A stretch of DNA of 64,000 nt from Rhodopseudomonas palustris (GTDB lineage: Bacteria; Pseudomonadota; Alphaproteobacteria; Rhizobiales; Xanthobacteraceae), in contig NZ_CP058907.1 of assembly GCF_013415845.1 (NCBI RefSeq), forward strand, positions 2,356,001-2,420,000, read 5' to 3'. The number at the start of each line of letters is the position of its first letter. Positions within the stretch are counted from its first letter, which is position 1. Under the pieces are notes generated by a model. That model ran no database searches. It was given only the letters and a program-made list of their open reading frames with translations, and was not told the DNA's origin. Positions 507 to 62,042 of the stretch are shown here, piece by piece. A program made the translations under genes and the position numbers.

Positions 507-510
507 CACG

Positions 511-789: not shown

Positions 790-1032
790 TCTGGGCCTCA
801 AAACGTAAGAACGCGGCTCAGATGCAACCGGTATGCCATGGCCGGCGAGTCGCGCCGGCCTGCGCCGAAGCGCCGCGGAAGTGAGGGAAGCTCCGGTTGG
901 ACGGCCCCGCGTAGTATTACGAGGATCAGAATTGGCCGGCCCTGGTCGGACGGCGCAGTGGCCTTCGGCGTTGTGTGAATTCAAATAAGCTGTTGATTTT
1001 ATAATAGAATGACGTCCGGGAAGGCTGTAACC

Positions 1033-1052
1033 ATCCGTTAACCATAACGGAT
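1033..1052. promoter_or_regulatory. Inverted repeat containing a CtrA half-site
   Basis: Perfect 8-bp arms (ATCCGTTA / TAACGGAT) around a 4-base spacer. The left arm and spacer include TTAACCA, which resembles the CtrA half-site TTAAC. It sits 23 bases before a complete CtrA box in the same divergent promoter region (790-1241). Its role is inferred from position only. Confidence 0.35.
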
Positions 1053-1074
1053 CATGGTTCCCGTTCGAGGCCGC

Positions 1075-1090
1075 TTAAACTGCATTTAAC
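1075..1090. promoter_or_regulatory. Consensus CtrA binding box
   Basis: The sequence is TTAA, seven bases, TTAAC: an exact match to the CtrA consensus TTAA-N7-TTAAC of alphaproteobacteria. It lies about 150 bases upstream of the Tlde1-domain gene start at 1242 and about 290 bases from the divergent gene at 789. CtrA controls cell-cycle, division and envelope genes, so control of the cell-wall-type gene to the right is plausible. Confidence 0.6.
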
Positions 1091-1241
1091 TAAAACCCGC
1101 CTTAATCGCGCTCCTCTGTTCTGCCACATCTGTATGCGGTATCTTGGTTCGCCGCTGACCGATGGGGAAAAGTCGGGAAGCGAGCGAATGAGAGTCGGCA
1201 CGGGGCGGCGATCGCTGTCCAACCAACGTGGGGCCCGCTAC

Positions 1242-2384: not shown

Positions 2385-2519
2385 TCAGCTAACCACCACG
2401 TCGCCGGGGCAGGCGCCGTACGCGGCGCGCCAAAGCCGTCTTGTCTCCACAATCCGTGAACGGTCCGGCCGGAACCAGTTGGCCGGGCTCGCACTTGGTC
2501 GATCAAAGGGAGATCGACC

Positions 2520-2849
2520 ATGACCCCACGCCTGTCTGCTGCCGTGTTTGCGTTTACCGTCGCCGCGGGCGGCTCCGCCGTCGCGCAGGATCAGGGCACA
2601 GCCGCGCAGCGCGAGGCGTGTACGCCCGACGCCTTCCGCCTCTGTGGCCAATTCATTCCCGATGCGTCCAGGATCGAAAGCTGTCTGCGTGAGGCGGGGC
2701 CGCGGCTGAGCCCGGCCTGCTACGTGGTGTTCAATCCACCGAAGACCACCAACCAGCGACCGCTGCGCACGGTGCGCCGTCAGGCTCCCCAGGACTTCCA
2801 GCAGGCCGACGATGAGAGCAGCGTCGGACGCAACTTCGATCGCTGGTGA
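2520..2849 (+). CDS. Small secreted cysteine-containing protein (109 aa)
   Basis: Begins with a clear Sec signal peptide (MTPRLSAAVFAFTVAAGG, cleavage near AVAQD) behind a GGGAG ribosome site. The mature part has a four-cysteine core, C-x7-C-x12-C-x11-C, starting at ACTPDAFRLC, then a basic tail. The same arrangement occurs in the protein at 31817-32128 (CRPDVMRLC...), so the window holds two paralogs. The conserved cysteines probably form disulfides in the periplasm. Function is unknown; such proteins are common, lineage-restricted small exports in Bradyrhizobium and Rhodopseudomonas. Confidence 0.75.
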   Translation: MTPRLSAAVFAFTVAAGGSAVAQDQGTAAQREACTPDAFRLCGQFIPDASRIESCLREAGPRLSPACYVVFNPPKTTNQRPLRTVRRQAPQDFQQADDESSVGRNFDRW

Positions 2850-2880
2850 CGTCAGGCTCGGTGTGGCCTCTGAAATGCGA

Positions 2881-2906
2881 AGAGGGCGGATGGAGATCCG
2901 CCCTCT
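2881..2906. terminator. Hairpin between convergent genes
   Basis: Perfect 11-bp arms AGAGGGCGGAT / ATCCGCCCTCT with a GGAG loop, 32 bases after the stop at 2849 and 54 bases after the end of the opposing gene at 2960. The T-tract is weak on the plus strand and modest on the minus strand, so it is probably a bidirectional terminator. Confidence 0.5.
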
Positions 2907-2959
2907 GATGTTGTGGCGGAGCTATCGCTGCTGCCGCGTGGCATGGCTCGATCTGTCGA

Positions 2960-3214
2960 TCAGCGGCAGACGCGGGTGGTGCGAACCACGTGATGGCCGT
3001 GCGGACCGCGGGTGACGACCTTCCGCACCGTGCAGTGCGGGCCACGGCGGATCACCCGCCGCCGCTCGACATAGCGCTGCGCAGAGACGTCGGTCATCGG
3101 AGCGGCGGCCAGCGGCTGCGAAGCCCGGGCGGGCGAGGCGGCAGAGGCGGGAGCACTGAGCACTCCGAGACCCAGAAACAGCGCAGCGGCGGCAGCAAAG
3201 GCAGTTGTCTTCAC
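2960..3214 (-). CDS. Small secreted basic protein (84 aa)
   Basis: An exported protein of unknown function. The start is taken as GTG at 3214 because AAGGAG lies a few bases upstream and the product then begins with a canonical signal peptide (VKTTAFAAAAALFLGLGVLS, cleavage near ASAAS). The mature chain is very basic, with RRRVIRRGPHC and a VVTRGPHGHHVV stretch and two cysteines near the C-terminus (HC, VCR). Histidine/arginine-rich small periplasmic proteins of this type are frequent in Bradyrhizobiaceae without known roles. An upstream ATG near 3274 would add 20 residues and spoil the signal peptide. Confidence 0.65.
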   Translation of the reverse strand: MKTTAFAAAAALFLGLGVLSAPASAASPARASQPLAAAPMTDVSAQRYVERRRVIRRGPHCTVRKVVTRGPHGHHVVRTTRVCR

Positions 3215-3360
3215 ACGCGTTCTCCTTGTCGGCCTCGATGTCCAAGATGGCCGGTAGGCTGCAACGGCGAGCAAAGTGGTTGGTTCGACGGGCGCGACGC
3301 CTCGACGCAGTTCGGTGCGCCAGCCGACACAACTCAGAGCAAGACCCTGCGGCGGGAAAG

Positions 3361-3382
3361 GCTCCGGCGCCGCCGCCGGAGC
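3361..3382 (-). terminator. Probable terminator of the SDR gene
   Basis: Nine-bp GC-rich arms GCTCCGGCG / CGCCGGAGC with a 4-base loop, followed on the minus strand by CTTTCCC. It lies 18 bases past the stop of the SDR gene at 3400. Confidence 0.45.
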
Positions 3383-3399
3383 TTTGAGCGCAGCCGCGC

Positions 3400-4149
3400 T
3401 TACTTGAGCCCGCCGGTGACATGCAGCGTCTCACCCGTGACGTAGGACGCGCCGTCGGAGGCGAGGAAGGCAACGACCGAAGCGATCTCGGCAGCCTCGC
3501 CGATGCGGCCGAGCGGGGTGATCGCTTCGACCTGCTTTCGCATCTCGCCGTCATGGAAGCCGGCAGCCTTGACGCCTTCGGTGACCACCATGCCGGGGTT
3601 GACCGCGTTGACGCGGATCTTGCGCGGCGCCAGTTCTTTCGCCAGCACCGCCGTGATCAGATCGACCGACGCCTTGGTGGCGCCGTAGACCGCGGTGTTT
3701 GGCATCGCGATCGTCGAAACGCCGGATGAGATATTGACGACGCTGCCACCGTCGTTGAACTGCCGCGCGGCCGCTTGCGTCACCAGCAGCAGCCCGAGCA
3801 CGTTGACGTCGAATTGGCGATGGAAGTGCTCCGGCGTGATGTCATCGAGCGCGCCGAATTCATACACGCCGGCATTGTTGACCAACACGTCGATCGGACC
3901 GAACGCCGCGACGGTCGCGTCGACGATGGCCTGCGCCTCCTTGGGATCGGTGACGCTGCCGCCGACCGCGATCGCCTTGCCGCCTTGCGCGGTGATCTTG
4001 TCCACGACGTCGTCGGCGCCCTGTTTGCTGGAGGCGTAATTCACGGCGACCGCGGCGCCTTCGGCCGCGAGCTTCAGCGCGATCTCCGCGCCGATGCCCT
4101 TCGATGCGCCGGTCACCAGCGCCACTTTGCCTTGCAGTGTCTTGGTCAT
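3400..4149 (-). CDS. SDR-family oxidoreductase (FabG-like), ArsR-controlled
   Basis: A 249-residue classical short-chain dehydrogenase/reductase. Visible motifs are the nucleotide-binding TGASKGIG, NNAG, the catalytic Ser (VNISSG), the YGATKAS motif with Tyr and Lys, and the late ASYVTGETLHVTGG strand typical of FabG-like enzymes. It probably reduces a ketone or aldehyde with NAD(P)H in the cytosol; the substrate cannot be told. The start at ATG 4149 gives the usual short N-terminus. It is transcribed divergently from an ArsR-family regulator at 4262, and a perfect inverted repeat lies between them, so it is most likely the regulator's target. Confidence 0.85.
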   Translation of the reverse strand: MTKTLQGKVALVTGASKGIGAEIALKLAAEGAAVAVNYASSKQGADDVVDKITAQGGKAIAVGGSVTDPKEAQAIVDATVAAFGPIDVLVNNAGVYEFGALDDITPEHFHRQFDVNVLGLLLVTQAAARQFNDGGSVVNISSGVSTIAMPNTAVYGATKASVDLITAVLAKELAPRKIRVNAVNPGMVVTEGVKAAGFHDGEMRKQVEAITPLGRIGEAAEIASVVAFLASDGASYVTGETLHVTGGLK

Positions 4150-4576: not shown

Positions 4577-5269
4577 GGCTATCGATCGACGCGAGTCTAT
4601 GAAGAGATCGAGGCGGGCTGCGATGTCGCTTCGATTCTGCGCCGCATGAATGCGATGAGTGATTCCGGGCAGCATTGCCGCACGAGCGTACGCAAACGCA
4701 CGATGTGCGACGCGTATCACTGAGCGCGATTGCGCAGCACCGTTTCACACAGCGGCAAATCATGCGGCGCCTGAGGCAAACATCCACACAAATCCGCAGA
4801 AGACCTCTGCGACAGTCTGTAGCGGTAGGTATCTTGTTGCGTGATGGAACTCGCCCAATTAAACAAAAAAGAACATTCAAAAAGAACCGTTCACTGGGGG
4901 CTAAAATGGTGGTGCGCAACAAGATCATTTCCGAAGCGCTGCATAGCGCTTTCGCTCGTTGCACCAAGGCATCGCCGATCGTTGCGAAGATCGAAGGCCT
5001 GGACGCTTAGTCCGCCGCAGCTGGCCTCGACTCGAACGACACATTGCGCGGTCGAGCGAACGCTTAGCAGTTAGCTTCAACGCTTTTCCGGCATCCGGCT
5101 TCAACAGACCGCCTCGGTCTGAACGGCGAAGCTTTGTCGAAATGTCGCCGGCGGCCGAACGGCCGTCCTTCCGTTTGCTGACGGCGTCGCCCACGACGCC
5201 GTGTTGAGGCCGCAGCTCCTCCAGCGGCGTCACTCCGATCCGATCTCCCTCTTGTTCTTGGAAGTCACG
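4577..5269 (+). other. 693-base gap before the autotransporter
   Basis: No gene is confidently supported here. One very small frame at 4906-5010 (34 codons, ATG, GGGGG six bases upstream) could encode MVVRNKIISEALHSAF... but shows nothing recognisable. The stretch 4855-4900 is markedly A-rich for this genome and may carry the promoter for the autotransporter gene. Confidence 0.4.
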
Positions 5270-49929: not shown

Positions 49930-50165
49930 CGAGCAAGGCGCGCTCCCGCTCCCGCGCGCGGGAGAGGGCTGGGGTGAGGGCGCCCCAGGCACAGTGCGCT
50001 CCCTCGCCCCGCCCTTGCGGGGAGAGGGGTGGGGTGAGGGGCGCTGCGGGCACTGAGTCTCGGCCTTGCGGAGGCGCCCCCTCACCCGACCCGGCTTCGC
50101 TGCGCTCCGCCGGGCCGACCTCTCCCCGCCCGCGGGGAGAGGTTGCGCTGTGCATGGGGAGAGGT
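49930..50165. repeat. Tandem CTCTCCCC/GGGGAGAG palindromic repeats before guaA
   Basis: The 348-base gap between the methyltransferase gene and guaA holds alternating modules: GGGAGAGGGCTGGGGTGAGG, CCCTTGCGGGGAGAGGGG, CCCCTCACCCGACCCGGC and CCTCTCCCCGCCCGCGGG. This is the common intergenic repeat of alphaproteobacteria. No gene is seen here. Confidence 0.7.
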
Positions 50166-50233
50166 CAGGGGACGCTGCCGCTCATCCTGTTTTCCCCGTT
50201 GCGAGCCGGGCTGCGGTCGCGTATCTGCTGCCC

Positions 50234-51856
50234 ATGACAGCCCCCAGCACATCCTCCGCTTCGTCCGTCGTCCCCTCCGGCGCCGACACCTCGCCGCACG
50301 TCGCTGCGATCCACGAGAAGATCCTGATCGTCGATTTCGGCTCGCAGGTCACCCAGCTGATCGCCCGCCGCGTCCGCGAGGAGGGCGTGTATTCCGAAAT
50401 CGTGCCGTTCCAGAAGGCGGAGGCCGCCTTCGCCGAGATGAAGCCGAAAGCCGTGATCCTGTCCGGCGGTCCGGCCTCGGTGCTGGACGACAACGCGCCC
50501 AGCGCCCCGATGACGATCCTGGAAGCCGGCGTACCGGTGCTCGGCATCTGCTACGGCGAACAGACGCTGGCCAAGCAGCTCGGCGGCACCGTCGAGGGTG
50601 GCCACCACCGCGAATTCGGCCGCGCCCAGATCGAGATCACCGATGACTGCGCGCTGTTCGACGGCATCTGGCAGAAGGGCGGCAAATACGACGTCTGGAT
50701 GAGCCATGGCGACCGCGTCACCAAGCTGCCGGCAGGTTTTCGCGCGGTGGCGCAGGCGCCGGGTTCGCCGATCTCGGTGATCGCCGACGACACCCGCAAA
50801 TTCTACGCGATGCAGTTCCACCCCGAAGTGGTGCACACGCCCGACGGCGCCAAGCTGCTCCGCAATTTCGTCCGCAAGGTCGCAGGCCTCACCGGCGACT
50901 GGACGATGCGCGCCTTCCGCGAGGAAGCGATTGAGAAGATCCGCAGCCAGGTCGGCAGCGGCAAGGTGATCTGCGGCCTGTCCGGCGGCGTCGACTCCGC
51001 GGTCGCGGCGGTGCTGATCCATGAAGCGATCGGCGATCAGCTCACCTGCGTGTTCGTCGACCATGGCCTCTTGCGCAAGGACGAGGGCAAGAGCGTCGTC
51101 GACCTGTTCCGCCACCACTACAACATCCCGCTGGTGCATGTGGATGTGTCCGAGACCTTCCTCGGCGCGCTGAAGGGCGTCACCGATCCGGAGCAGAAGC
51201 GCAAGACCATCGGCAAGCTGTTCATCGACGTGTTCGAAGCCGAAGCCAGACGCGTCGGCGGCGCCGACTTCCTGGCGCAGGGCACGCTGTACCCGGACGT
51301 GATCGAGAGCGTGTCGTTCACCGGCGGCCCGTCGGTGACGATCAAGTCGCATCACAACGTCGGCGGCTTGCCCGAACGCATGAACATGAAGCTGGTCGAA
51401 CCCTTGCGCGAACTGTTCAAGGACGAAGTCCGCGCGCTCGGCCGTGAGCTCGGGCTGCCCGACGTGTTCGTCGGCCGCCATCCGTTCCCGGGCCCCGGCC
51501 TCGCGATCCGCTGCCCCGGCGAGATCACCGAAGAGAAGCTCGAAATCCTGCGCAATGCGGATGCGGTGTATATCGACCAGATCCGCAAGGCGGGCCTCTA
51601 CGATGTCATCTGGCAGGCGTTCGCCGTGCTGCTCCCGGTCCGCAGCGTCGGCGTGATGGGCGACGGCCGCACCTACGACTACGTCGTCGGCCTGCGCGCC
51701 GTGACGTCCACCGACGGCATGACCGCCGACTTCTATCCGTTCGAGATGTCCTTCCTCGGCGCCACCGCGACGCGGATCATCAACGAGGTCAAGGGCGTCA
51801 ACCGCGTGGTGTACGATGTCACGTCGAAGCCGCCGGGGACGATTGAGTGGGAGTGA
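50234..51856 (+). CDS. guaA: GMP synthase (glutamine-hydrolysing)
   Basis: A 540-residue enzyme that aminates XMP to GMP. The N-terminal class I glutamine amidotransferase has [17 protein letters not shown], the catalytic Cys in GICYGEQ, and MQFHPEV with the His and Glu. The ATP-pyrophosphatase domain has the PP-loop [10 protein letters not shown]; the dimerisation domain ends [11 protein letters not shown]. The N-terminus is about 25 residues longer than usual, Ser/Pro-rich. ATG 50234 is used because upstream sequence is repetitive. Its last 26 bases are repeated at 55976-56001, and it marks the left edge of the accessory region. Confidence 0.98.
51831..51856 (+). repeat. Direct repeat at the guaA 3' end (left copy, att-like)
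   Basis: The final 26 bases of guaA, from CGCCGGGGACGATTGAG to GGGAGTGA (the stop), are found again without a mismatch at 55976-56001. Integration at the guaA 3' end is a known island strategy, and the repeat has the position of an attL. Confidence 0.75.
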
Positions 51857-52328
51857 GGAATACAAAAGGTGGCAACGGCGTAGTTTCAGCGGCGGCTTTC
51901 GCGCTCGCGTAGTTGCCATTCACCTCTGTTTCTCTGCCGCCTCGCCGGCACCGAGAGCAACATTAGCGACGCGGCGCTGGACGATCCGACCAGCGTGGAG
52001 CTGGTGCTGTTGCTTTTAGAACCGAAGAACAAGAAGAAGTGCTGGGTCTCGACAACCTTTTCTCCTCTCCCGAATGTGCGCCTTAAGGAGGCCATTCAAA
52101 GCTGTGACCCAAAGGCGGGGGAGCCGGAGTCAGCGCAATCGGCAGCATCCATTGATTTTGAGATACGCGATCTGAGTCAAGGTCGGCGAGGAGACATTGT
52201 GCGGGCAAGCACGCTTGCAACCTTGCGTCGCAAGCTTCACCTTTCTGCAAGGATTCGGGGGGCTCTCTAGCGAACTGAAGTTTGGATGCCGGGGAGGTCT
52301 GTGCGCTCAATCTCTATGGAAAGCTCAA
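51857..52328 (+). other. 472-base leader between guaA and hamA
   Basis: No gene is firmly supported. One open frame, readable as LAGTESNISDAALDDPTSVE then LVLLLLEPKNKKKCWVSTTF and ending at 52270, has protein-like composition but no start codon with a ribosome site except GTG 51995; it may be a remnant. No integrase or recombinase fragment is recognised. Confidence 0.4.
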
Positions 52329-53252
52329 ATGGCGGGACTGATATTCGACGTCCTTATCGACGATTCGCTATCGAACATTACTTCGGCTTCGCAGCTCAAA
52401 GGTTTGGTGAAGAAGCGTGTCTTGAGCCTCGTCAACGACTTTGAAGATGCGAGTTGGCGCTATCTGAAGTTCAAGAGCTTCCTCTGGGACAACATCGCTC
52501 AGACAGCGCTGTCCGAAAGAGAGCGGGCCTCTCTTGTGGATCAGAGTTACAGCAGTCTGGTGGCTGCCGCGAAGAACCTGAGATTGACGGACAAGGATGG
52601 GGTCGGGCAGGGAAGTGAGATCGCGGAAGTGTTCCTGTATGGAATCATGCGGCACCAATATAAGGCGCTGCCTGTTGTTCCGAAGATTTTCTACAAGCAA
52701 AACACTCAAGACAACGCCAAAGGCGCGGATAGCGTTCACATCGTTATTAATGAGAGTGATTTCACGCTCTGGTTTGGCGAAGCGAAATTTTACAACTCTA
52801 TCGAGGACTATCGCCTCGATTCCATTGTCGCATCGGTCATGGCGTCACTCTCGACTGATAAGCTGAAGAAGGAAAACGCGATCATCACCAGCGTTTCTGA
52901 TCTGGACGGATTGAGAATTGAGCCGACTCTACGCGAGAATATCAGGTTAGCTCTCAGTAACAGAGAGTCTATCGATAACCTGAAATCAAAAATCCATATT
53001 CCAATCTTAATACTCCACGAGTGCCGTGATACGGCGGCTTCGAAAGACCTTACCGAATCTTACAAGAAGAAGATTCAATCATACCACAAGGGTAGGGCGG
53101 ATGCGTATTTTGCCAAGCAGATTACGAAGTCGAGTAGTATTCACAAATACGACGACATAACTTTTCACATCATACTATTCCCAGTCCCGAGCAAGAAGGA
53201 CATCGTTGATGCCTTCATCAAGACTGTCGCTTTCTATAAGGAGCAGGGGTGA
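52329..53252 (+). CDS. hamA: Hachiman anti-phage system nuclease HamA (DUF1837)
   Basis: A 307-residue protein matching the DUF1837 family that defines HamA. The C-terminal half carries a PD-(D/E)xK-type nuclease core: GSEIAEVFLYG (Glu97/Glu100), GADSVHIVI (Asp134) and WFGEAKFYNS with Glu151 and Lys153. In studied Hachiman systems HamA degrades DNA when released by HamB on sensing damaged or invading DNA, stopping phage spread by killing the cell. The gene overlaps hamB by one base (TGATG). Base composition is clearly more AT-rich than the flanking guaA. ATG 52329 follows GGAAAG; earlier in-frame codons are less convincing. Confidence 0.88.
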   Translation: MAGLIFDVLIDDSLSNITSASQLKGLVKKRVLSLVNDFEDASWRYLKFKSFLWDNIAQTALSERERASLVDQSYSSLVAAAKNLRLTDKDGVGQGSEIAEVFLYGIMRHQYKALPVVPKIFYKQNTQDNAKGADSVHIVINESDFTLWFGEAKFYNSIEDYRLDSIVASVMASLSTDKLKKENAIITSVSDLDGLRIEPTLRENIRLALSNRESIDNLKSKIHIPILILHECRDTAASKDLTESYKKKIQSYHKGRADAYFAKQITKSSSIHKYDDITFHIILFPVPSKKDIVDAFIKTVAFYKEQG

Positions 53253-55339
53253 TGGATTTTTTCGAAACCTGTCACGAGATCAATAATCTTCTCTCTGTGC
53301 GCAATGAGCTTGCAGCGAGAAATCTCCTGATCCGTTTGTTGGCAGATCTTGAGCAGGCGGGGCGACCTTATCCGCAGGTTGTGAACCACATGATTAGGGC
53401 GACCGGGTTGTTTCCGTACTTGCAGCTTGATGGTGCATCCTGGGACGTCAAGTATGTCCATCAGGCATTTGAGGTCGACGTCGGACGTCGTGTCGCAACC
53501 CTGCATCGGGAGCAGTCTAGTGTTCTGGCGAAGTTGTTGGATGGAACGAGTATCGCCGTAAGTGCTCCTACCAGTTTTGGAAAGAGCTTTATTATTGACG
53601 CCTTCATCGCGGCGAAGCGGCCCGATACAGTTGTGATCATTGTGCCGACAATCGCGCTCATGGATGAAACACGCAGGAGGATTTTTAAGAAATTTTCAAA
53701 AGAATACACGGTGATCACTGCGTCTGATACGGCGCTAGGCGCCAAGAATATTCTTATATTTCCGCAGGAACGGGCGTTTGGGTATTTGGGCCTTCTAGAT
53801 AGTATAGATCTGCTGGTCGTCGATGAGTTTTACAAGGCTAGCCAGAAGCACGATCGGGAGAGGGCACCATCCCTCATTAAGGCGATACTAAAACTCTCGA
53901 AGAAGGCAAAGCAGAGATACTATCTGGCGCCGAATATCAAGAGGCTTGGGGAAAACGCGTTCACAAAGGGGATGGATTTTATCGAACTTCTCGATTTCAA
54001 TACCGTCTATCTTGATATCAAGGATCACTACAGTGAGATTGCTGGTGATGAGGGCAAGAAGGGTGAAAAGCTTATCGAGCTGATTTCATCGGGCAATCAG
54101 AAGGCGCTTATCTACGCCGGAACCTATGCGGACATTAAGCGGGTGTCCGACCTTGTTATCGGTCGTATGCCGAAGGTTGATAATCCCTACACTGGGCCGT
54201 TCGCGCAATGGCTTCGCGACAATTACAAGTCAGACTGGATACTGGCTGATCTTGCCGATCGAGGGGTCGGTGTCCACAACGGGCGAATGCATCGTTGTAT
54301 AAGTCAGCTTCAGGTGAAGCTGTTCGAGTATGACAACGGATTCAACAACATTGTGTCGACATCTTCGATTATTGAGGGTGTGAATACGTCCGCAGAGAAT
54401 GTCATTTTGTGGCGGAGCAAGATTGGAAAGAATAATCTGAAGGATTTTACCTATAAGAACATTATTGGTCGCGGTGGCCGAATGTTCAAGTATTTCGTTG
54501 GAAACATTCACCTCCTGGATAATCCGCCGGCCGCGGAGGATGCTCAGCTCGAAATAGAATTCCCAGAGGAGATTCTGGGCACGCTGGACGAGGCCGGCGA
54601 TGCCGATCAGTTGACGGACCGCCAAGTTGAGAGAATTATCGAGTATAAGGCCCAGATGTCGTCAATCGTTGGCGACGAGAATTTCGCGCGCATCAAGCGC
54701 GAGAATTTACTTCATGACAGTGACGCCGATTTCTTGCTGCGTCTAGCGATGGACATGCGGGACTCCCCCGACGATTGGAAGGGATTCGGGTATCTTAATT
54801 CGCGAAATTCGTCCAACTGGGACAGTACACTTTACAAAGTGCTAAAGTTGAAGCCGAATGGCTGGGATGCCCCTTGGGGTAAGGTTGTTGCCGTTACGAA
54901 GGCTATCGCCAATAACTGGACGCAAGACCTTTCTCGGATCATCAAATCCCTTGAAGATGACGGGATAGATATCGAGGAATTTTTCAAGATAGAGCGTGCG
55001 GTAACTTTCAAATTGTCGGCGCTTCTTAGCGATACAAATGAACTGCACAAGTTGATCGTCAATTCGTCCATCGACGTTTCCGGCTTCGTTAGTCGCATGA
55101 GTCGCGCATTCCTCCCAAGCGCTGTGTATCACCTTGAGGAGTACGGGCTCCCTCGGATGATATCGAAGAAGATTCACAACGCGGGCATTATCAATTTTGA
55201 AGAGGCTGGTATGGATCTGCTCGTGGCCCTAGAGCGGTTCAAGATGATCGGGGAGGCGAAGGTTTCGGAGGTCGAGACGCTGAGTCGATTCGACAGATAC
55301 GTTGTGAAATTTTTCTTCGACGGGATCACCGTAGATTGA
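53252..55339 (+). CDS. hamB: Hachiman anti-phage system helicase HamB
   Basis: A 695-residue superfamily 2 DNA helicase. Motif I is APTSFGKS (about 105-112), Ia VPTIAL, motif II VDEFYK (a DExx box, about 190-195), then GVGVHNGRM and STSSIIEGVNTSAENV, with motif VI NIIGRGGRM near 405. The C-terminal ~280 residues are helical and specific to HamB-like proteins. HamB forms a complex with HamA, senses DNA ends and unwinds them to free the nuclease; that mechanism is known from other Hachiman systems. AAGGAG lies before the TGATG overlap with hamA; a GTG one codon earlier is possible. AT-rich codon use like hamA. Confidence 0.9.
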   Translation: MDFFETCHEINNLLSVRNELAARNLLIRLLADLEQAGRPYPQVVNHMIRATGLFPYLQLDGASWDVKYVHQAFEVDVGRRVATLHREQSSVLAKLLDGTSIAVSAPTSFGKSFIIDAFIAAKRPDTVVIIVPTIALMDETRRRIFKKFSKEYTVITASDTALGAKNILIFPQERAFGYLGLLDSIDLLVVDEFYKASQKHDRERAPSLIKAILKLSKKAKQRYYLAPNIKRLGENAFTKGMDFIELLDFNTVYLDIKDHYSEIAGDEGKKGEKLIELISSGNQKALIYAGTYADIKRVSDLVIGRMPKVDNPYTGPFAQWLRDNYKSDWILADLADRGVGVHNGRMHRCISQLQVKLFEYDNGFNNIVSTSSIIEGVNTSAENVILWRSKIGKNNLKDFTYKNIIGRGGRMFKYFVGNIHLLDNPPAAEDAQLEIEFPEEILGTLDEAGDADQLTDRQVERIIEYKAQMSSIVGDENFARIKRENLLHDSDADFLLRLAMDMRDSPDDWKGFGYLNSRNSSNWDSTLYKVLKLKPNGWDAPWGKVVAVTKAIANNWTQDLSRIIKSLEDDGIDIEEFFKIERAVTFKLSALLSDTNELHKLIVNSSIDVSGFVSRMSRAFLPSAVYHLEEYGLPRMISKKIHNAGIINFEEAGMDLLVALERFKMIGEAKVSEVETLSRFDRYVVKFFFDGITVD

Positions 55340-55528
55340 GGGGCATCTGTAACGACGAAGAACAATTTCGATTAAATCGTGTTGGTCGGAAGATTCGAGG
55401 CCTATCGTTGGGGTATGACGCTCCCTAACACTGGAGCCTAGGCCAGGGGACGTCTTGACTTCGCCTCAACGCTTGGTGGGCGCCGCGCGTAAACCTCGTA
55501 GCAAAGCGAATCTCCGTCGAGTGAACGC

Positions 55529-55771
55529 CTAGAGCGGTAGCCAGCATCGTGCCGTCATCTCCCGCGTCATCTCCGCAATCGTCTCCCGTAGCTCCGTCGG
55601 CCCCAGCACGTCCGCCTCCGGCCCGAGCCGCAGTAGTTCGGAGGCGGCGTGCCAGGATGTTTGCCGATCGGGATCTTGGCGATGTGCCAGCCATCCGCGT
55701 TTGAGACATCATCGAGCGGCGTGCACGATCGGACATAGGACTCGCTCAGTGCGTCGAGGTGCGTGACGCCG
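55529..55771 (-). pseudogene. Degraded 3' fragment of a WYL-domain regulator
   Basis: The minus strand codes for [20 protein letters not shown] then ADGWHIAKIPIG, which aligns with the C-terminus of the intact WYL protein at 60334-61329 (LNALSQPYVRSRTELDDIAD, then ADGWRVAKIPVG). After IPIG a one-base deletion shifts the frame; the next frame continues SWHAASELLRLGPEADVL and GPTELRETIAEMTREM, again matching the intact copy, to a stop at 55529. It lacks the first ~245 codons, so it is not functional. It is joined to a guaA fragment at the sequence CGCCG (55767-55771). Confidence 0.88.
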
Positions 55772-56001
55772 TGCTGTTCCCAGTCCCGCACCGTCGCGTG
55801 ATGGGCGACAGCCGCACCTACGACGACACCCTCGGCCTGCGCGCATTGACGTCGACCGATGGAGAGATCACCGACTTCTATCAGTTTGAGATGTCCTTCC
55901 TCGGCGCCACCGCAACATGGATCATCAACGAAGTGAAGGGCGTCAACCGCGTGGTGTGCGACGTGACGAGCAAGTCGCCGGGGACGATTGAGTGGGAGTG
56001 A
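55767..56001 (+). pseudogene. guaA: Diverged 3' fragment of guaA
   Basis: This frame codes for [20 protein letters not shown] then [20 protein letters not shown] and ends [11 protein letters not shown], a diverged copy of the last ~78 residues of GuaA. It has substitutions at conserved sites (for example R-to-W in TATWII) and no start of its own, so it is not functional. The last 26 bases equal the true guaA end exactly. Its 5' border is fused to the WYL remnant. Confidence 0.9.
55976..56001 (+). repeat. Direct repeat at the guaA-fragment end (right copy, att-like)
   Basis: Exact 26-base match to 51831-51856. Together the two copies bound the Hachiman cassette (51857-55975). Confidence 0.75.
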
Positions 56002-56281
56002 ATTACCCTCATCTCACGCCGCTTCAAACGAATTCAAAAGTCACGAAAATCCAAGAGTGATAGCAACTTGGGTGCATCAGGTCCCCTCGTCCTGCTTCAC
56101 CTAAGCTTGCGCATTTGACGATAGTTGCCGCATGAGCTGATCCGCAAGCCGCGGGCTTCCGGCGACTCGATTGCTGAGACGGCGAAGATGACGAAATGCT
56201 CGACCAGCCAGGTGAAGCTTGTTTGCCGACAGGTGCAATCTGAGCCGGCCGCCCCTTAATGTTGCACGAACGTCCGTCTCT
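56002..56281 (-). other. Gap with a possible gene remnant
   Basis: On the minus strand about 50 in-frame codons ending at 56101 read RLRLHLSANKLHLAGRAFRH then LRRLSNRVAGSPRLADQLMR before a stop. The composition is protein-like, but there is no start and no recognised family; it may be the tail of a lost gene of the second cassette. Confidence 0.3.
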
Positions 56282-56806
56282 TTACGTCGCCTCCGCCGTC
56301 ATGGTTGGCGTGATCTTCTCGGCGTCAGAGATCAAGACTTGCATGGACTGAACGCACAGCCGGATTTGCTCGCCGTAGTTCAACCACGATTGCACGCCCT
56401 TGTTGCCATGAAAAATGTTGTTGCGGGATCGGAAGATAACGAAGACGAGAAGAAACACCTTGTCTTCGCCGGTGAACGCGTCGAACGGGAGTTGGAGCAG
56501 GGCTGAGTGTCCCACGTTCTCATGCCCATGCATGAGGTTTCCGAGCCGCCTCTTGTCCTGAAACCGCGCGTGAAAGTGAGCTACGGCGTCACGCAGTTCA
56601 GCGGCGTCGATGCGAGGTGCCGTGCGCTGTGCGTACTGCACAATGCCTGAGGCTCTGACGTAGCCCCCAAAACAGTTGGACTCGAATGGCGACCACACTA
56701 CCAGGAACTGCAAGGCCGTCTCGTCTGCGAGCAGGCGAGTCATCTCAAATTCCGACTCGCCGAACAATGTCCCAAGCCATGAGTGGAAGTTTGCATTGCT
56801 TGGCAT
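56282..56806 (-). CDS. HEPN-like protein, candidate ribonuclease (174 aa)
   Basis: A 174-residue largely helical protein. Near the C-terminus it has RSRNNIFHGNK, which fits the HEPN ribonuclease motif R-x4-6-H (Arg128, His133, with Asn after Arg), followed by a helix (WLNYGEQIRLCVQSMQVLI) as in HEPN domains. HEPN proteins are RNA-cutting toxins or sensors in many defence systems. The N-terminal half (LGTLFGESEFEMTRLLADE) is unassigned. It is the last of three minus-strand genes; a 137-base gap separates it from the 216-residue gene. AT-richer than the core genome. Family assignment is by motif only. Confidence 0.65.
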   Translation of the reverse strand: MPSNANFHSWLGTLFGESEFEMTRLLADETALQFLVVWSPFESNCFGGYVRASGIVQYAQRTAPRIDAAELRDAVAHFHARFQDKRRLGNLMHGHENVGHSALLQLPFDAFTGEDKVFLLVFVIFRSRNNIFHGNKGVQSWLNYGEQIRLCVQSMQVLISDAEKITPTMTAEAT

Positions 56807-56943
56807 GTTCGTGCGTTCCAGAAAGGAAGTTGGTCTGGTAGAGTCCGCGTAATAACTCCGATATAACGGGCAGTACGGTAATTGTTGGCTAGTTAGTTGC
56901 CGTGCAAGGTCTGCACTGCTGACTGGCCTCAGCGCCGCCGGCT

Positions 56944-57594
56944 CTATCTTGTAGCTCTTGACTTATCAGCAAGTGACGCAAGAAGCAGGTTGTCGAGCTG
57001 GCGCGGCGATAGTTTGAGGCCAAATTCGCGCCTGATGTGGGCAACCAAATGGGCGCATTTCTCGACGAATTTCCGGTATTCATGGTCGCTGGTCCCGTCT
57101 GTTCGTGAGGCGCGGGGCACTAAGTAAGCGAAGTGGCGCATCGCTTTCACCGCTCGCGTGTCGTAGATGTAGAAGAGCTGCGGGACATGGAAATGAAGAT
57201 ACTTCGATGCAAGGGAACGCTTTTCCAGGTCGCTTATTCTGCTAAATAGCTCAGTAACTTTGCCATGGATCATGAGTAGAGTTCTTGATCCATCCTGCGT
57301 CCCTGGTGTCGCGGCTCTTGCCTCCCGCAGCCATTGATCGATTTCCGAGTTCATGACCGCCGGTGCGACAGATGTTAGATAGAAGTCATCGTTCTGATCT
57401 GCTGCGGTCTTGTTCTTCCTGCGTTCGATGGCGGCCGCGTAAGCACGACCAATGATCAAAATCTTGGCAACCACGGCACCCCGATCAGTATGCGCCGGAT
57501 ATCGTTCGCAGAGTTCGTAGAGTATTTTGTTGCAGGTGTCCCAAGGGGTTCCAGCCTTGGCCTCCAGGATGGCATTCCGGGTGATGGCTTTCAT
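56944..57594 (-). CDS. Unknown accessory protein (216 aa), partner of the HEPN-like gene
   Basis: A 216-residue soluble, mostly helical protein. It begins MKAITRNAILEAKAGTPWDT, and includes KILIIGRAYAAAIERRKN, HGKVTELFSRISDLEKRSLA, and FYIYDTRAVKAMRHFAYLVP. No known domain or catalytic motif is recognised with confidence. ATG 57594 is used; the frame is open 47 codons upstream but that part is arginine-rich and overlaps the next gene. It lies between the HEPN-like gene and a small gene on the same strand, so these three may form one cassette in the guaA-WYL hotspot. Confidence 0.65.
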   Translation of the reverse strand: MKAITRNAILEAKAGTPWDTCNKILYELCERYPAHTDRGAVVAKILIIGRAYAAAIERRKNKTAADQNDDFYLTSVAPAVMNSEIDQWLREARAATPGTQDGSRTLLMIHGKVTELFSRISDLEKRSLASKYLHFHVPQLFYIYDTRAVKAMRHFAYLVPRASRTDGTSDHEYRKFVEKCAHLVAHIRREFGLKLSPRQLDNLLLASLADKSRATR

Positions 57595-57686
57595 GTAATG
57601 ATCTCGGTGCGTGATTCGCCCGGCGCAATGTATCCAACTTGCGGCTCCATCCGTGAATTCGGGGCGCCGTTCAGGCTGACGACAAC

Positions 57687-57908
57687 TCACTTTGAGTAGT
57701 CGTCGGTGTAGTCGTGGAACGCCTGCGGGGGCCATCGCTGATTGAGCGCGCGTTCGACCTGCAGCAGCCAGCTTTCAGTCTCCGGAGACACGTTGCCTGC
57801 ATATATCGCCTCCAAGTCATCCGGAATGCTGCGCATGACGGCCTGCGCCAGGCCCTTCGGGCTGATGCTCGAGTGTTCGCTCCTAAAGAGCGCCCGGCCC
57901 GCAGCCAA
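57687..57908 (-). CDS. Small acidic protein or truncated gene (73 aa or longer)
   Basis: The frame reads AAGRALFRSEHSSISPKGLA, then SIPDDLEAIYAGNVSPETES and ends FHDYTDDYSK. It looks coding, but the first usual start is TTG 57908, and the same frame stays open upstream through VDGRGLW, PGQTERG and VYDYRYV to about 57995. A GGGGG site lies upstream of an ATT codon there, so the gene may use a rare start, or its 5' end was lost. No family recognised. It lies 92 bases before the 216-residue gene on the same strand. Confidence 0.45.
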   Translation of the reverse strand: MAAGRALFRSEHSSISPKGLAQAVMRSIPDDLEAIYAGNVSPETESWLLQVERALNQRWPPQAFHDYTDDYSK

Positions 57909-58040
57909 GTCAATCCATAAGCCTCGACCATCAACGAATACTGAAGCTCCCCGTTCGGTTTGGCCGGGGGGCGTAACATATCGATAATCATATACAATTT
58001 GATTTTTCCCCCAGGGCCCGAACCGTGATGTCGCGCTCTC

Positions 58041-59237
58041 TCAACCGACAAAGGCGGAGATGATCAGGGCGTTGACGATGTCGATAAAGAAGCCGCACAC
58101 CAGGGGTACGACGATGAAGGCGCGGTGGGCGGCGCCGTATTGCTGGGTGACCGCTGTCATGTTGGCGATGGCGGTGGCCGTCGAGCCCAGCGCTATTCCG
58201 CCGAAGCCCGCCGAGATCACCACAGCCTCGTAGTCCTTCCCCATAAACCGGAACACGATCGATATGGTGAAGACGACGGCCAGGATGATCTGCACGAAAA
58301 GAGCCGAGGCGACGAAGGTGAAGACGCCATTGAGTTGCCAGAGCTGAAGCCCCATCAACGCCATGGTCAGGAACAGGCCGAGGGCGAGGTCGGATACCAG
58401 GGTCAGTCCGTCGTCCACGCCAGGCCAAAGTCTCTGGACGCGCGAACTCACAGCGATGGGCATGAGGTTGCGGATCAGGATTCCGGCCATCAGGCAACTC
58501 ACGAAGGCGGGCAGGTTCAGGCCTGTGCGTGTCAGCGCATCATGAATGCCGAGCCCGAGGATGATGGCGAGGTTCAAAGCCAGCACAGCCCAAAGGATGC
58601 AGAAGTAGTCGAGCTTGGGCTGACGGCCGTCATTGGAAACGCCGATGGCGAGTTCGGGGTCGTCGGTGGCGGCGACATTGTGACGCTTCATCAGGAAGGC
58701 GGCCACGGGGCCGCCGATCATGCAGGCCGCGATCAGCCCGACCGTATTGGCCGCAACACCCAATTCCATGGCGTTGGTGATGCCGAGCCGCTCGGTGAAT
58801 GTCGGTGCCCAGGCGAGCGTCGTACCGATGCCGCCGGTCAGCGAGATCGAGCCCACCATCAGTCCGGCCTTGGCTTCCAGTCCGAACAGCGAAGCCATGC
58901 CCATGCCGGCAAAGTTCTGGATCAGCATGAGGACGACAGCGAGCGACAGCAGGATGACCAGCGGCCGGCCGCCGGCCAGAAGCATCTTGACCTCGGCCTT
59001 CAGGCCTATGCCCGCAAAGAACAACAGAAGCAGAAAGTCGCGCATCGCGAGATCGAAGGTGATCTGCCGATCAAGAAGCGTGTAGCTGAGGGCAACCACC
59101 GCTGTGCACAGGAACCCACCGATGACCGGCTCGGGAATGGAATATTTGCGCAGGAGCGGCGCGTTCAGTGTCGCGATCTTGCCGGTCAGAAGCAGGATGA
59201 CGGCGATCGTGAACGTATAGAAGGCATCGATTTCCAT
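58041..59237 (-). CDS. gltS: Sodium/glutamate symporter GltS
   Basis: A 398-residue inner-membrane transporter with about ten helices, close to the 401 residues of the E. coli protein. It starts MEIDAFYTFTIAVILLLTGK, with YSIPEPVIGGFLCTAVV and the pore loop SLTGGIGTTLAWAP in the first half, and its inverted-repeat counterpart AGFGGIALGSTATAIANMTA in the second half. It imports glutamate with Na+. It stands alone in the accessory cassette, with no apparent link to defence genes. ATG 59237 fits the family. Confidence 0.92.
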   Translation of the reverse strand: MEIDAFYTFTIAVILLLTGKIATLNAPLLRKYSIPEPVIGGFLCTAVVALSYTLLDRQITFDLAMRDFLLLLFFAGIGLKAEVKMLLAGGRPLVILLSLAVVLMLIQNFAGMGMASLFGLEAKAGLMVGSISLTGGIGTTLAWAPTFTERLGITNAMELGVAANTVGLIAACMIGGPVAAFLMKRHNVAATDDPELAIGVSNDGRQPKLDYFCILWAVLALNLAIILGLGIHDALTRTGLNLPAFVSCLMAGILIRNLMPIAVSSRVQRLWPGVDDGLTLVSDLALGLFLTMALMGLQLWQLNGVFTFVASALFVQIILAVVFTISIVFRFMGKDYEAVVISAGFGGIALGSTATAIANMTAVTQQYGAAHRAFIVVPLVCGFFIDIVNALIISAFVG

Positions 59238-59414
59238 AGGCTTTTCGGATTCTAATGGGGGACCAGGCAGTGACAGCAGTTTTGCGATCACGGCGGACAG
59301 GGGTTCAATTGAGCGGCTGGCTCAACGCCCGTGGTGGGCAGTCATCGGGAGGTGCGGGCGCGGGACAACGCCATGTGCGCGTAGCCGGCAAACCCACGGC
59401 GGTTCACGCTCGGC

Positions 59415-59843
59415 TCATGCCGCTCCCCGGATCGGGTTGATGAGCTCGATGCCCTCGAAGTCGTTCTCGTTGTCTGTGACGACAAGGCATCCGTTCGCTT
59501 CGGCGACGGCGGCGATGATGGTATCAAGCGCATTCCGAGGCCTGCCTCGAGCTTTCCCGTCCGCCATGAGCCGCGCCCAGACCAGCGCCGCGCTCTCGTC
59601 GAAAGGAAGTATTCGGCCGGCGAACAGCGCCTGCGGTCCTTCAGCCGCTGAAAACCAGGCTTCCAGTTGATCGCGTGTTTTGCCTGCCGGCTTATCGAGA
59701 ATCCCGCGGCGAATTTCGGCGACGGTCTGGGAGGAAATGAAGAGATCCTCGTCTGCCTGATCAGCCATCCAGGCCAAAAGGGGGGCTGGCGGATTTGGTT
59801 TGGTGATGTTGCTCAGGATGTTGGTGTCGAGCAGATAGCGCAT
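59415..59843 (-). CDS. vapC: PIN-domain toxin, VapC family
   Basis: A 142-residue PIN-domain ribonuclease toxin. The acidic active-site residues are visible: Asp in MRYLLDTNILSN, Glu in TVAEIRRGIL, Asp in NALDTIIAAVAEANG and Asp in VVTDNENDFEGI. VapC toxins cut tRNA or rRNA until bound by antitoxin. Its ATG overlaps the antitoxin stop by one base (TGATG), so production is coupled. Length and motifs are normal. Confidence 0.92.
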   Translation of the reverse strand: MRYLLDTNILSNITKPNPPAPLLAWMADQADEDLFISSQTVAEIRRGILDKPAGKTRDQLEAWFSAAEGPQALFAGRILPFDESAALVWARLMADGKARGRPRNALDTIIAAVAEANGCLVVTDNENDFEGIELINPIRGAA

Positions 59844-60142
59844 CAAAGGTCGACCTTGCGCCCTTCGTCGCGCGGACGCGCCAGATCGAGAGTGGCGCCG
59901 ACCAAGGGCGAGCGCCGGAGCGCGGCAGCGATGCCTCCCTTTTTCGGCGGCTCGCCGGCGATCGTCTGACTGAGGGCCGCGCGCAGCCGCGAGGCCTCCG
60001 GTCCCTCTTCGGCCAGTCGGCGGGCAAGCGATCGAATAAGATCACGGTCGGCATCGCGGCCGAGAACCTCAAAGCGCGCCAGGCCTCGCTCACTCAGGCG
60101 CGATCGATAGTTCTGAATGGCGCGCTTTTGCGAAGTGCCCAT
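59843..60142 (-). CDS. Antitoxin of the VapC pair (vapB-like)
   Basis: A 99-residue protein directly upstream of vapC with a TGATG overlap. It is basic and helical at the start (GTSQKRAIQNYRSRLSERGL) with FEVLGRDADRDLIRSLARRL and ends ARPRDEGRKVDL, which probably wraps the toxin. The N-terminal RSRLSERGLARFEVLG segment resembles a ribbon-helix-helix DNA-binding unit, so the pair likely represses its own promoter. It does not match the classic AbrB- or Phd-type VapB closely. Confidence 0.8.
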   Translation of the reverse strand: MGTSQKRAIQNYRSRLSERGLARFEVLGRDADRDLIRSLARRLAEEGPEASRLRAALSQTIAGEPPKKGGIAAALRRSPLVGATLDLARPRDEGRKVDL

Positions 60143-60333
60143 CGGTCTGCTCCGGAGATTTCCAGTGATATATCCAGAGCCATGGGGGTGGGCAAGGCGC
60201 GATGGAACGGGGCGCGTTTGACGTGCTGTCGCGGGCCGCACCGCTTTGTCGCCGCTTGGTCATGTCCTGGCCGTCGCGTCCGCGAGCGCAGCCAGCACGA
60301 AATCGGCGCGGGCTGCGGTGGGGATCATGAGTA

Positions 60334-61329
60334 TCAAGATGTGAGCGCAGTGGCGTATCGCTCCGCCATCGCCCGCGTCATCTCGGCAATCGTTGTGCGG
60401 AGCTCCGCCGGCTCCAGCACTTCGGCCTCCGGTCCGAGGCGAAGCAGTTCAGCGGCTGCGTGCCAGGACGTTGTGCCGACCGGGATCTTCGCGACCCGCC
60501 AACCATCCGCATCGGCGATGTCATCGAGCTCTGTGCGCGATCGGACATAGGGCTGGCTCAGCGCGTTCAGCAGCTTCACGCCGAGCGGGGACAGCCGGAC
60601 AGTCGCGATGTTGGGATGGAGCTCGGCTTCCATGCGCAGCGTCGCGCTTTGCCAGTAGGCGGCGAGATCGAAATCGGCCGGACGCGTGAAGCGGTCGTCG
60701 AGCGGCGTGCAGTCGAGCACGCGCGCGATCCGGTAGGTCCGGACGCTGCCGTCGACCTGTCCGGCGAGATACCAACTGCCGCCCTTTAGCACGAGGCCGA
60801 GCGGCGCGACGCGGCGGCGCTTCTGCCCGCGCCAGCTCTCGTAGCGGATCTTGATCAGCGTCCCGCGCAGCACCGCGGCGGCGACGGCGCGCAGATGCTT
60901 CGGCTCTTCGGCCTCGCCGAACCAGCCCGGCGCGTCGAGGTAGAAACGCTCCTGCATCCGTCCGGCGTCTTCGCGTACATTGGCCGGCAGCGCCGCCATC
61001 AGCTTGTTCTGCGCGGCGATCATCGCCGCATCGAGACCGAGCGCGGCGGCGGGGCCGCGCAGGCCGGCGAGGAACAGCGCGCCGGCTTCGCTCTGCGACA
61101 GCCCGTTCAGCCGCACGCGATAGCCGTCGAGCAGCCGATAGCCGCCCTCGGCGCCGCGGTCGGCATAGACCGGCACGCCGGACGCTGCGAGCGCGTCGAT
61201 GTCGCGATAGATCGTGCGCACCGACACCTCGCAGGCCTCGGCCAGCTCCGGCGCGGTGACCCGGCCCTTGGCCTGCAAAGTTGTGAGGATCGACAGCATT
61301 CGGCTCGCGCGCATGATGGATTGAACCAT
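60334..61329 (-). CDS. WYL-domain transcriptional regulator (YafY/DeoR type)
   Basis: A 331-residue regulator. An N-terminal HTH-11 domain (ASRMLSILTTLQAKGRVTAP, then EVSVRTIYRDIDALAASGVP) is followed by GLSQSEAGALFLAGL and the WYL domain (about 135-215, KIRYESWRGQKRRRVAPLGLV, with RTYRIARVLDC). A perfect palindrome overlaps its start codon, so it likely controls itself and the divergent GST gene. WYL proteins are ligand or nucleic-acid sensors. The 3' third has a degraded duplicate at 55529-55771. ATG 61329 is preferred over a GTG three codons upstream. Confidence 0.9.
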   Translation of the reverse strand: MVQSIMRASRMLSILTTLQAKGRVTAPELAEACEVSVRTIYRDIDALAASGVPVYADRGAEGGYRLLDGYRVRLNGLSQSEAGALFLAGLRGPAAALGLDAAMIAAQNKLMAALPANVREDAGRMQERFYLDAPGWFGEAEEPKHLRAVAAAVLRGTLIKIRYESWRGQKRRRVAPLGLVLKGGSWYLAGQVDGSVRTYRIARVLDCTPLDDRFTRPADFDLAAYWQSATLRMEAELHPNIATVRLSPLGVKLLNALSQPYVRSRTELDDIADADGWRVAKIPVGTTSWHAAAELLRLGPEAEVLEPAELRTTIAEMTRAMAERYATALTS

Positions 61330-61354
61330 ACCTGACACAGGATGTCAGGTATGG
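61326..61354. promoter_or_regulatory. Operator palindrome over the WYL start codon
   Basis: Perfect 12-bp arms CCATACCTGACA / TGTCAGGTATGG with a 5-base spacer. The left arm covers the WYL start codon (complement of CAT at 61327-61329); the right arm ends 31 bases before the GST start at 61386. It is the obvious site for the WYL regulator. Confidence 0.8.
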
Positions 61355-61385
61355 GCTGCTAGGACGGTGCCTCGCAAGCTGGCTG

Positions 61386-62042
61386 ATGGAGACCGCCGTG
61401 ACCGATCCGAACCGACTGACCTTGTTCTATTCGCCGCAGACCCGGGCCACCGGCATGCGCGTGCTGCTCGAGGAGCTCGGCGCGCCGTACGATCTGCATG
61501 TGCTGAACATGAAGGCCGGCGAGCAGCGACAGCCGGCGTATCTCGCCATCAATCCGCTCGGCAAGGTGCCGGCGATCCGCCGCGGCGACGCGCTTGTCAC
61601 CGAGCAGGTCGCGATCACGATCTATCTGGCCGACCTGTTTCCGGGGGCCGGTCTCGCGCCATCGCTCGACGATCCGCTGCGCGGCCCGTATCTGCGCTGG
61701 ATCGCCTATTACGGCTCGACGTTCGAACCGGCGGTGGTCGACAGGTCCATGCAGCGCGAACCCGGACCGGCGGAGATGTCGCCCTATGCCGACTACGACA
61801 CGATGCTCGGCGCGCTCGAAGCGCAGCTTGCGACCGGGCCGTATCTGCTCGGCGACCGCTTCACGGCCGCGGACGTGCTGTGGGGGATTGCACTCAACTG
61901 GACGCTGAATTTCGGCCTGGTGCCGAAGAAAGACGCTTTCGTGCGCTACGCGGAGCTGGTCACCGCGCGGCCGGCGTTCCGGCGGGTCGATCAGGCCGAT
62001 GCCGAGATGGCGGCGGAGCACGCCGCTGCGGTTGGCGGCTGA
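61386..62042 (+). CDS. Glutathione S-transferase family protein, WYL-linked
   Basis: A 218-residue GST. The thioredoxin fold starts LTLFYSPQTRATGMRVLLEE; the cis-Pro motif is NPLGKVPAIRR and the glutathione-binding acidic-Thr pair is in VTEQVAITIYLADLF. The C-terminal helical domain includes YLLGDRFTAADVLWGIAL, the GST N-cap. It is divergent from the WYL regulator with a shared palindrome, so it is probably the regulated target, perhaps in detoxification. Substrate unknown. Confidence 0.9.
   Translation: METAVTDPNRLTLFYSPQTRATGMRVLLEELGAPYDLHVLNMKAGEQRQPAYLAINPLGKVPAIRRGDALVTEQVAITIYLADLFPGAGLAPSLDDPLRGPYLRWIAYYGSTFEPAVVDRSMQREPGPAEMSPYADYDTMLGALEAQLATGPYLLGDRFTAADVLWGIALNWTLNFGLVPKKDAFVRYAELVTARPAFRRVDQADAEMAAEHAAAVGG

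Follow-up and report, generated by a model that had tools for sequence, protein, structure and literature searches.

Two cassettes stacked between guaA and a WYL gene in Rhodopseudomonas palustris, and recurrent guaA 3′-end scars in its family

Background

Many insertion hotspots have no recognised recombinase. How their content is gained is an open question, and exchange by double crossover in the flanking core genes has been proposed (2017, PMC5635113). Integrases of the P4 type have been described to target the end of guaA, the GMP synthase gene, where the repeat is 20 bp long and surrounds GAGTGGGA (PMC7775301; Song et al. 2012 as cited there), and integrative and conjugative elements at guaA are described in Mesorhizobium (PMC8627217). 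Homology-facilitated illegitimate recombination, involving segments of 3-10 bp, has been documented in transformable bacteria (PMC6382021). Here we describe the interval between guaA and a WYL regulator gene in Rhodopseudomonas palustris, in which two accessory cassettes are separated by a decayed second 3′ end of WYL (WYL′) fused to a decayed second 3′ end of guaA (guaA′). The window analysed comprises 64,000 nt of contig NZ_CP058907.1 (GCF_013415845.1, positions 2,356,001-2,420,000), and all coordinates are window positions unless another locus is named.

A displaced 3′ gene end is also left when e14 or phage 21 integrates inside icd: a diverged end of 100-200 bp then lies downstream. That system has a fixed att site and an integrase, whereas at guaA the joints lie at varying positions and the interval described here yielded no integrase. 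Within the open-licence PubMed Central literature, no account was found of guaA 3′-end duplications of this kind, nor of a one-sided crossover combined with tandem duplication.

Results

Intact guaA (50234..51856, plus strand) and an intact gene for a WYL transcriptional regulator (60334..61338, minus strand; family match) flank the interval, which holds a Hachiman cassette (hamA-hamB) on the left and a gltS block with a VapBC-like pair on the right. A blastn comparison of 55400-56120 with the window matches 55767-56001 to guaA 51622-51856 (86% over 236 columns, E 2e-74) and 55546-55774 to WYL 60357-60586 (79% over 230 columns, E 2e-50). The orientation within the window is plus/plus in both cases, and from left to right the seam runs from the WYL stop side into the WYL body, then from the guaA body to the guaA stop. 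WYL′ (55546..55771, minus strand) and the 235-bp guaA′ (55767..56001, plus strand) have exactly CGCCG in common (55767..55771, plus strand): on reading the sequence, the preceding base follows WYL and the next base follows guaA. Five or more shared bases at a random WYL|guaA joint have a probability of 0.011, and illegitimate joints facilitated by homology commonly share 3-10 bp. In the surrounding genome (5.32 Mb, one contig) the seam matches itself, guaA and WYL only (E 0.001), and roughly the final 23 bp of WYL have no blastn counterpart in WYL′. Both guaA copies end in the same 26 bp (51831-51856 and 55976-56001), against 31/208 differences elsewhere (15%). The tandem arrangement of the cassettes around a WYL′|guaA′ seam had been described in an earlier sequence-only reading and is confirmed by blastn, Pfam and PADLOC; its further statements, that a degraded WYL 3′ fragment is joined to a guaA 3′ fragment at CGCCG and that the seam reads in the order given above, agree with the alignments, and its proposal that a segment was added by tandem joining or by insertion of a circle names the right class of event.

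An in-place duplicate starts identical to its parent and later decays at all codon positions alike. Compared without gaps over 235 bp, guaA′ differs from own guaA at 14 first, 9 second and 15 third codon positions (18/153 at positions 1+2 and 13/78 at position 3 in the codon counts), while for functional guaA genes in the genus the corresponding counts against own guaA are 1-6, 1-5 and 10-30. Such near-even differences indicate that most of the guaA′ divergence is pseudogene decay. Among the 24 of 235 sites at which guaA′ is unique, 20 fall at positions 1 or 2; WYL′ has 23 unique changes in 252 compared columns, distributed 10/8/5 by codon position. The sequence-only reading had taken the divergence of the copies as a sign of a related donor chromosome and against a recent duplication in place, an argument that does not survive this decay pattern.

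Phylogenetic trees group guaA′ with genome G004 (94/74), inside G004+G015+G005 (97/90), own guaA as its sister not being rejected by the approximately unbiased test (p-AU 0.145). WYL′ falls among G005, G006, G011, G015 and own WYL (91/96), with G005 nearest (82%) and own WYL as sister again not rejected (p-AU 0.342). Both fragments, judged by these trees, look derived from within the genus, and this placement, together with the decay, means that a remote donor finds no support in their divergence. The haplotype of G004, G015 and G005 is the one to which both guaA′ and gltS point. The sequence-only reading had proposed to find the donor lineage by phylogeny of the fragments. The trees do place guaA′ with G004, and G005 is nearest to WYL′, but neither fragment is long or well preserved enough to name a donor and the own-copy alternatives are not rejected.

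The genus set comprised 16 genomes including that of the window, with one genome per species (named G001 etc.). All 16 have guaA and ten have WYL, which lies on the same contig as guaA in eight (G013 and G014 are split, the contig of G013 ending inside guaA). Content 3′ of guaA varies among most of the 15 genomes read, G004 being like G015 and G007 like G010. In G004, G005 and G015 gltS follows guaA without Hachiman, at 93-94% identity to the gltS block of the window (58017..59392, minus strand; gene 58041-59291) and with edges that almost coincide; a search for WYL gave nothing in G004. The two cassettes thus do not always occur together, which is the outcome that the sequence-only reading had named as counting against it. 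In G005 (L090, 3731-7172) the defence genes IetA and IetS, identified by PADLOC, stand between guaA and the shared gltS block. The Hachiman system has no match in the other 15 genus genomes (E 1e-40). Relatives of 68-75% identity occur in 6/391 genomes of the family, and in the two whose positions were compared they are not beside guaA (about 0.94 Mb apart in G282, on another contig in G176).

Pieces of the flank genes occur in other intervals of the genus: WYL′ in G011 (188 bp, E 1e-48), guaA′ in G005 (47 bp, E 2e-11) and a 110-bp internal guaA fragment in G009 (L094, guaA turned to the plus strand, 5017-5157; E 7e-17). The last lies within about 30 bp of the WYL 3′ end and makes a scar whose geometry differs from that of the window. 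Marginal matches, of 49 bp to guaA in G006 and of 42 bp to WYL in G007 and in G010, were left out of the scar count. Relatives of WYL were found in 33/248 family genomes at E 1e-40, ten of them in this genus. In the 22 (of 23) genomes of other genera where guaA was located, WYL lies more than 100 kb from it or on another contig, closeness of the two still being possible there where contigs are draft. WYL beside guaA is thus seen only in this genus, and the WYL′-bearing cassette therefore probably joined within the genus's own guaA-WYL interval.

Duplicated guaA ends are not confined to this interval. The last 157 residues of GuaA were searched against 391 family genomes at least 90% complete (cut-off 1e-6), and genomes with more than one match were counted by eye from the genome table, giving extra C-terminal matches in 32/391. 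The guaA loci were read, with a downstream view of about 18 kb, for 25 of the 31 multi-match genomes besides that of the window; in the remaining six (G052, G063, G083, G237, G281, G386) the second match is on another contig or more than 100 kb off. G313, among those read, has its second match on another contig and no fragment at its guaA locus. In 24 genomes, or 25/391 with the window, the contig that bears guaA also carries a guaA fragment further downstream. The fragments start 85-553 bp before the guaA end and reach within 6 bp of that end in 20/24 (the exceptions are G397, G336, G117 and G338). The inserts between the copies measure 0.3-16.3 kb (median 2.3 kb; 19/25 under 4.5 kb), that of the window being 3.9 kb. 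A junction at -324 with one upstream context is common to G208, G381 and G336, and one at -137 to G032 and G066; the same junction with the same upstream sequence points to one event each, so that scar counts are not counts of independent events.

A DNA-level scan of 15 loci without a second protein match (L128-L142) revealed one clear scar, in G107, where a 115-bp, 93% guaA 3′ fragment lies 17.7 kb after guaA (L142, 19375-19487), and short or weak guaA matches in G133, G229, G235 and G247. Since the protein search had missed the G107 scar, the 25 scars are a lower bound. For a base rate, the guaB C-terminus was searched in the same 391 genomes. Two matches were counted by eye in 25, of which 15 in this genus and five in genus g10 are presumably paralogs; the remaining five genomes (G051, G198, G314, G357, G396) compare with 32 for guaA.

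The family scars enclose varied content. In G279 (L123, guaA on the plus strand) a Gabija pair (GajA 1.4e-233, GajB 1e-240) lies 169-3757 past the guaA end and is followed by a 139-bp guaA′; as this genome belongs to another genus, defence cassettes use the guaA site in at least two genera. The inserts at L106, L117, L118, L121 and L125 (0.9-1.5 kb) hold essentially one main gene each and resemble recombinase-free single-gene cassettes; their genes look, as guesses from sequence, phosphatase-like, membrane, protease-like and ParB-like, and one is PD-DExK nuclease-like by a PADLOC hit. The sequence ctttgaaaagtagatca, which may be the end of a dispersed repeat, stands about 7-13 bp before guaA′ in G117, G338 and G279 (L114, L119, L123), at three different guaA junctions.

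Codon positions offer a way of separating imported from in-place copies. Pooled over the 25 scars including the window, the copies differ at 131 of 3043 sites of positions 1+2 and at 273 of 1528 sites of position 3, a per-site ratio of 4.15 that is somewhat inflated because fragments little changed at positions 1+2 are the ones that a protein search finds most readily. Functional guaA pairs of different species, among the guaA genes of 114 genomes, give 6.7, and close pairs 9.8. Even decay would place about one third of the 404 differences at third positions, where 273 are observed. The ratio exceeds 2 in 21/25 scars, the exceptions being G397, G357, G431 and the window (1.38-1.86), and stop codons differ in at least six of the 18 copy pairs compared to the very end. 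This third-position excess suggests that in most family scars the two copies changed while each still worked as a gene, in separate genomes, and were brought together by import.

A possible contribution of site-specific recombination was also considered. Both guaA and guaA′ hold the tested 21-mer containing the GAGTGGGA core, and a 26-bp direct repeat with GAGTGGGA is present at both ends of the insert, but as the end of a 235-bp repeat. A Pfam scan found no integrase among the 10 interval open reading frames (ORFs), and three guaA integrases gave no tblastn match in the stretch downstream of guaA in the window. Intact P4-like tyrosine integrases do follow guaA in G001, G012, G014, G057 and G313 among 58 sequences examined (L086, L097, L100, L140 and L127); they lie about 300 bp after guaA and are about 73-87% alike. 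In G208 (L104, 4489-4581) and G336 (L109, 4895-4984), with guaA on the plus strand, an N-terminal integrase remnant stands just after guaA′, which suggests an older integrase island pushed downstream by a later insertion beside guaA. Such P4-type integrases could explain why neighbourhoods diverge at the guaA stop codon, but not repeats of 85 bp or more. Over 18 scars the ratio of differences in the last 26 bp to those in the rest is 0.81, against 0.71 in functional pairs, so that the ends are not unusually similar. Family junctions cluster, with 12 pairs within 1 bp against 4.6 expected (P 0.008; 25 hand-merged junctions). A common integrase site was set aside for want of core homogenisation over the 18 scars, although the clustering keeps a preferred-site reading alive.

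The left cassette consists of hamA (52329..53252, plus strand) and hamB, the helicase gene (53249..55339, plus strand), both identified by Pfam and PADLOC; the ATG at 52329 was picked as the hamA start because family relatives align from about that residue. HamA matches PF08878 (DUF1837; E 2.9e-54) and PADLOC HamA1 (1.4e-141), HamB matches PADLOC HamB2 (E 1.2e-216), and the HamA1 and HamB2 profiles are matched over nearly their full length. This adjoining pair is, on profile evidence, a Hachiman anti-phage system with predicted protection. Its GC content is 0.50, against 0.65 across the window, in which ARAGORN found no tRNA.

Right of the seam, three ORFs on the minus strand, of 174 aa (56282..56806), 263 aa (56944..57735, start uncertain) and 126 aa (57671..58051, which may not be a gene), have no Pfam, NCBIfam or PADLOC family, and the stretch they occupy (56282-58051) has no blastn match in 17 guaA/WYL loci from 15 relatives, these loci rather than whole genomes having been compared. 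The gltS block is followed by a PIN-domain, VapC-like protein (59415..59846, minus strand; family match) and its probable partner antitoxin (59843..60241, minus strand), named by position and with no family hit.

Discussion

On balance, the evidence favours a reading in which the guaA-WYL interval is an insertion hotspot and its two cassettes were stacked by a single event, combining a homologous crossover in a flank gene with an illegitimate 5-bp joint. Incoming guaA-Hachiman-WYL DNA, either linear or a circle closed at CGCCG, would have met a resident guaA-gltS-WYL haplotype. One joint would be a homologous crossover in guaA or WYL and the other an illegitimate one, from WYL body to guaA body at the 5-bp microhomology; with one end homologous and the other illegitimate, the new cassette would come to lie next to the old one and not take its place. 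The guaA and WYL genes at the ends would stay intact while the WYL′|guaA′ seam decayed. A similar load of unique changes in the two fragments is expected if one event made both. Either such an event or a tandem duplication would yield the geometry of the seam with no later deletion.

Delivery may have been as short DNA fragments, by transformation or by a gene transfer agent. The genome contains a GTA_TIM gene in a long open frame and a gene of the comEC family; as the latter family is present in 10/14 control genomes, it says little on competence. The gene transfer agent RcGTA carries pieces of about 4.5 kb (PMC9690577), and the 3.9-kb insert of the window, set beside this size, is suggestive, but only suggestive, of such delivery.

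Several observations weigh against import followed by a one-sided joint. No strain with guaA-Hachiman-WYL alone occurs among the 16 genus genomes; of the single-cassette versions that the sequence-only reading had pointed to, gltS alone after guaA was found and Hachiman alone was not. Own guaA has no clear mosaic break. The third-position excess of the family is somewhat overstated by the protein search, and the scar of the window itself has a ratio of 1.42, which is near even and compatible with duplication in place. Third positions also give no consistent trend when the direction of import is judged by the nearest sister species: the fragment of G428 is nearer to G353 (44 vs 57 third-position differences), while in G208, G381, G338 and G431 it is the functional copy that is nearer to the nearest sister species. 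Finally, the clustering of family junctions is easier to account for by preferred sites, or by a recombinase as yet unknown, than by random joining, and the unchanged last 26 bp of guaA′ fit a site-specific core.

The exact joint could also be produced in one step by tandem duplication in place, from guaA -235 to the WYL body via CGCCG, with Hachiman (or gltS and its neighbours) then replacing one copy of the cassette. The decay-like divergence of guaA′ and the p-AU values, which reject neither fragment as sister of its own copy, are in keeping with such a history. It is nevertheless unlikely: a self-blastn of 50000-62000 shows no direct repeat beyond the flank fragments, so that one cassette copy would afterwards have had to be replaced in full; the closest sequence to guaA′ is that of G004 and not own guaA; and in most family scars the copies differ chiefly at third positions, which makes separate genomes the probable place of their divergence. 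Integration of a site-specific element by a P4-type integrase, lost or acting in trans, at the guaA 3′ end would make the 26-bp repeat attL/attR of an element enclosing Hachiman, WYL′ and most of guaA′. The identity of those 26 bp in a guaA′ otherwise 15% changed, the 21-mer with its core in both copies, the intact integrases after guaA in five relatives and the clustered junctions can all be read in this way. We consider it quite improbable, however, because core exchange gives a repeat of about 20 bp and not of 235 bp (85-553 bp in the family), no integrase or match to one was found in the searches of the interval, and the last 26 bp are not unusually similar over 18 scars.

The two fragments might, lastly, be debris of two unrelated exchanges that abut by chance, as flank-gene pieces are scattered elsewhere (only WYL′ in G011, only guaA′ in G009 and in G005). 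The exact abutment with a 5-bp overlap, the matching orientation and the similar load of unique changes make this a very remote prospect.

The stacking by a one-sided joint can be compared with the described systems. The locus resembles the hotspots of PMC5635113 in its conserved flanks, variable content and defence genes, and in having no mobile element among the interval ORFs scanned. It differs from the model proposed for them in that one end looks illegitimate, content is added and scars of the flank genes are left; the window would extend the double-recombination model by one-sided failure. With the guaA islands of P4-type integrases it has in common the target gene end, the core in both copies and, in five genomes, integrases at guaA, but it has no integrase of its own that was found and a duplicated guaA end of 235 bp instead of about 20 bp. 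Homology-facilitated illegitimate recombination (PMC6382021) offers the likeness of a short microhomology joint, here CGCCG; in that process a homologous anchor with donor sequence beyond it lies at the other end. Candidate anchors at the locus would be guaA and WYL, the donor side being discernible from neither. That process was described in competent cells in the laboratory, whereas here it is read from a decayed natural scar.

Conclusions

The general pattern in the family merits the attention of specialists, and the mechanism we infer for it can be put forward tentatively. The guaA 3′ end may be a recurrent landing place at which short foreign DNA, often single-gene or defence cassettes, is added by one-sided homologous recombination, leaving a second guaA end that evolved in another genome. 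The scars might then record, like fossils, cassettes taken up without an integrase and perhaps brought in by gene transfer agents, and might explain why defence genes are stacked at a hotspot and do not replace each other. Scars with two identifiable parents permit a direct test of how hotspots gain content, and the codon-position count on a duplicated gene end may separate imported from in-place copies, the 25 scars favouring import. If the pattern holds, a scan of other hotspots could look for such traces, and there would be a physical explanation for defence systems stacked beside a housekeeping gene.

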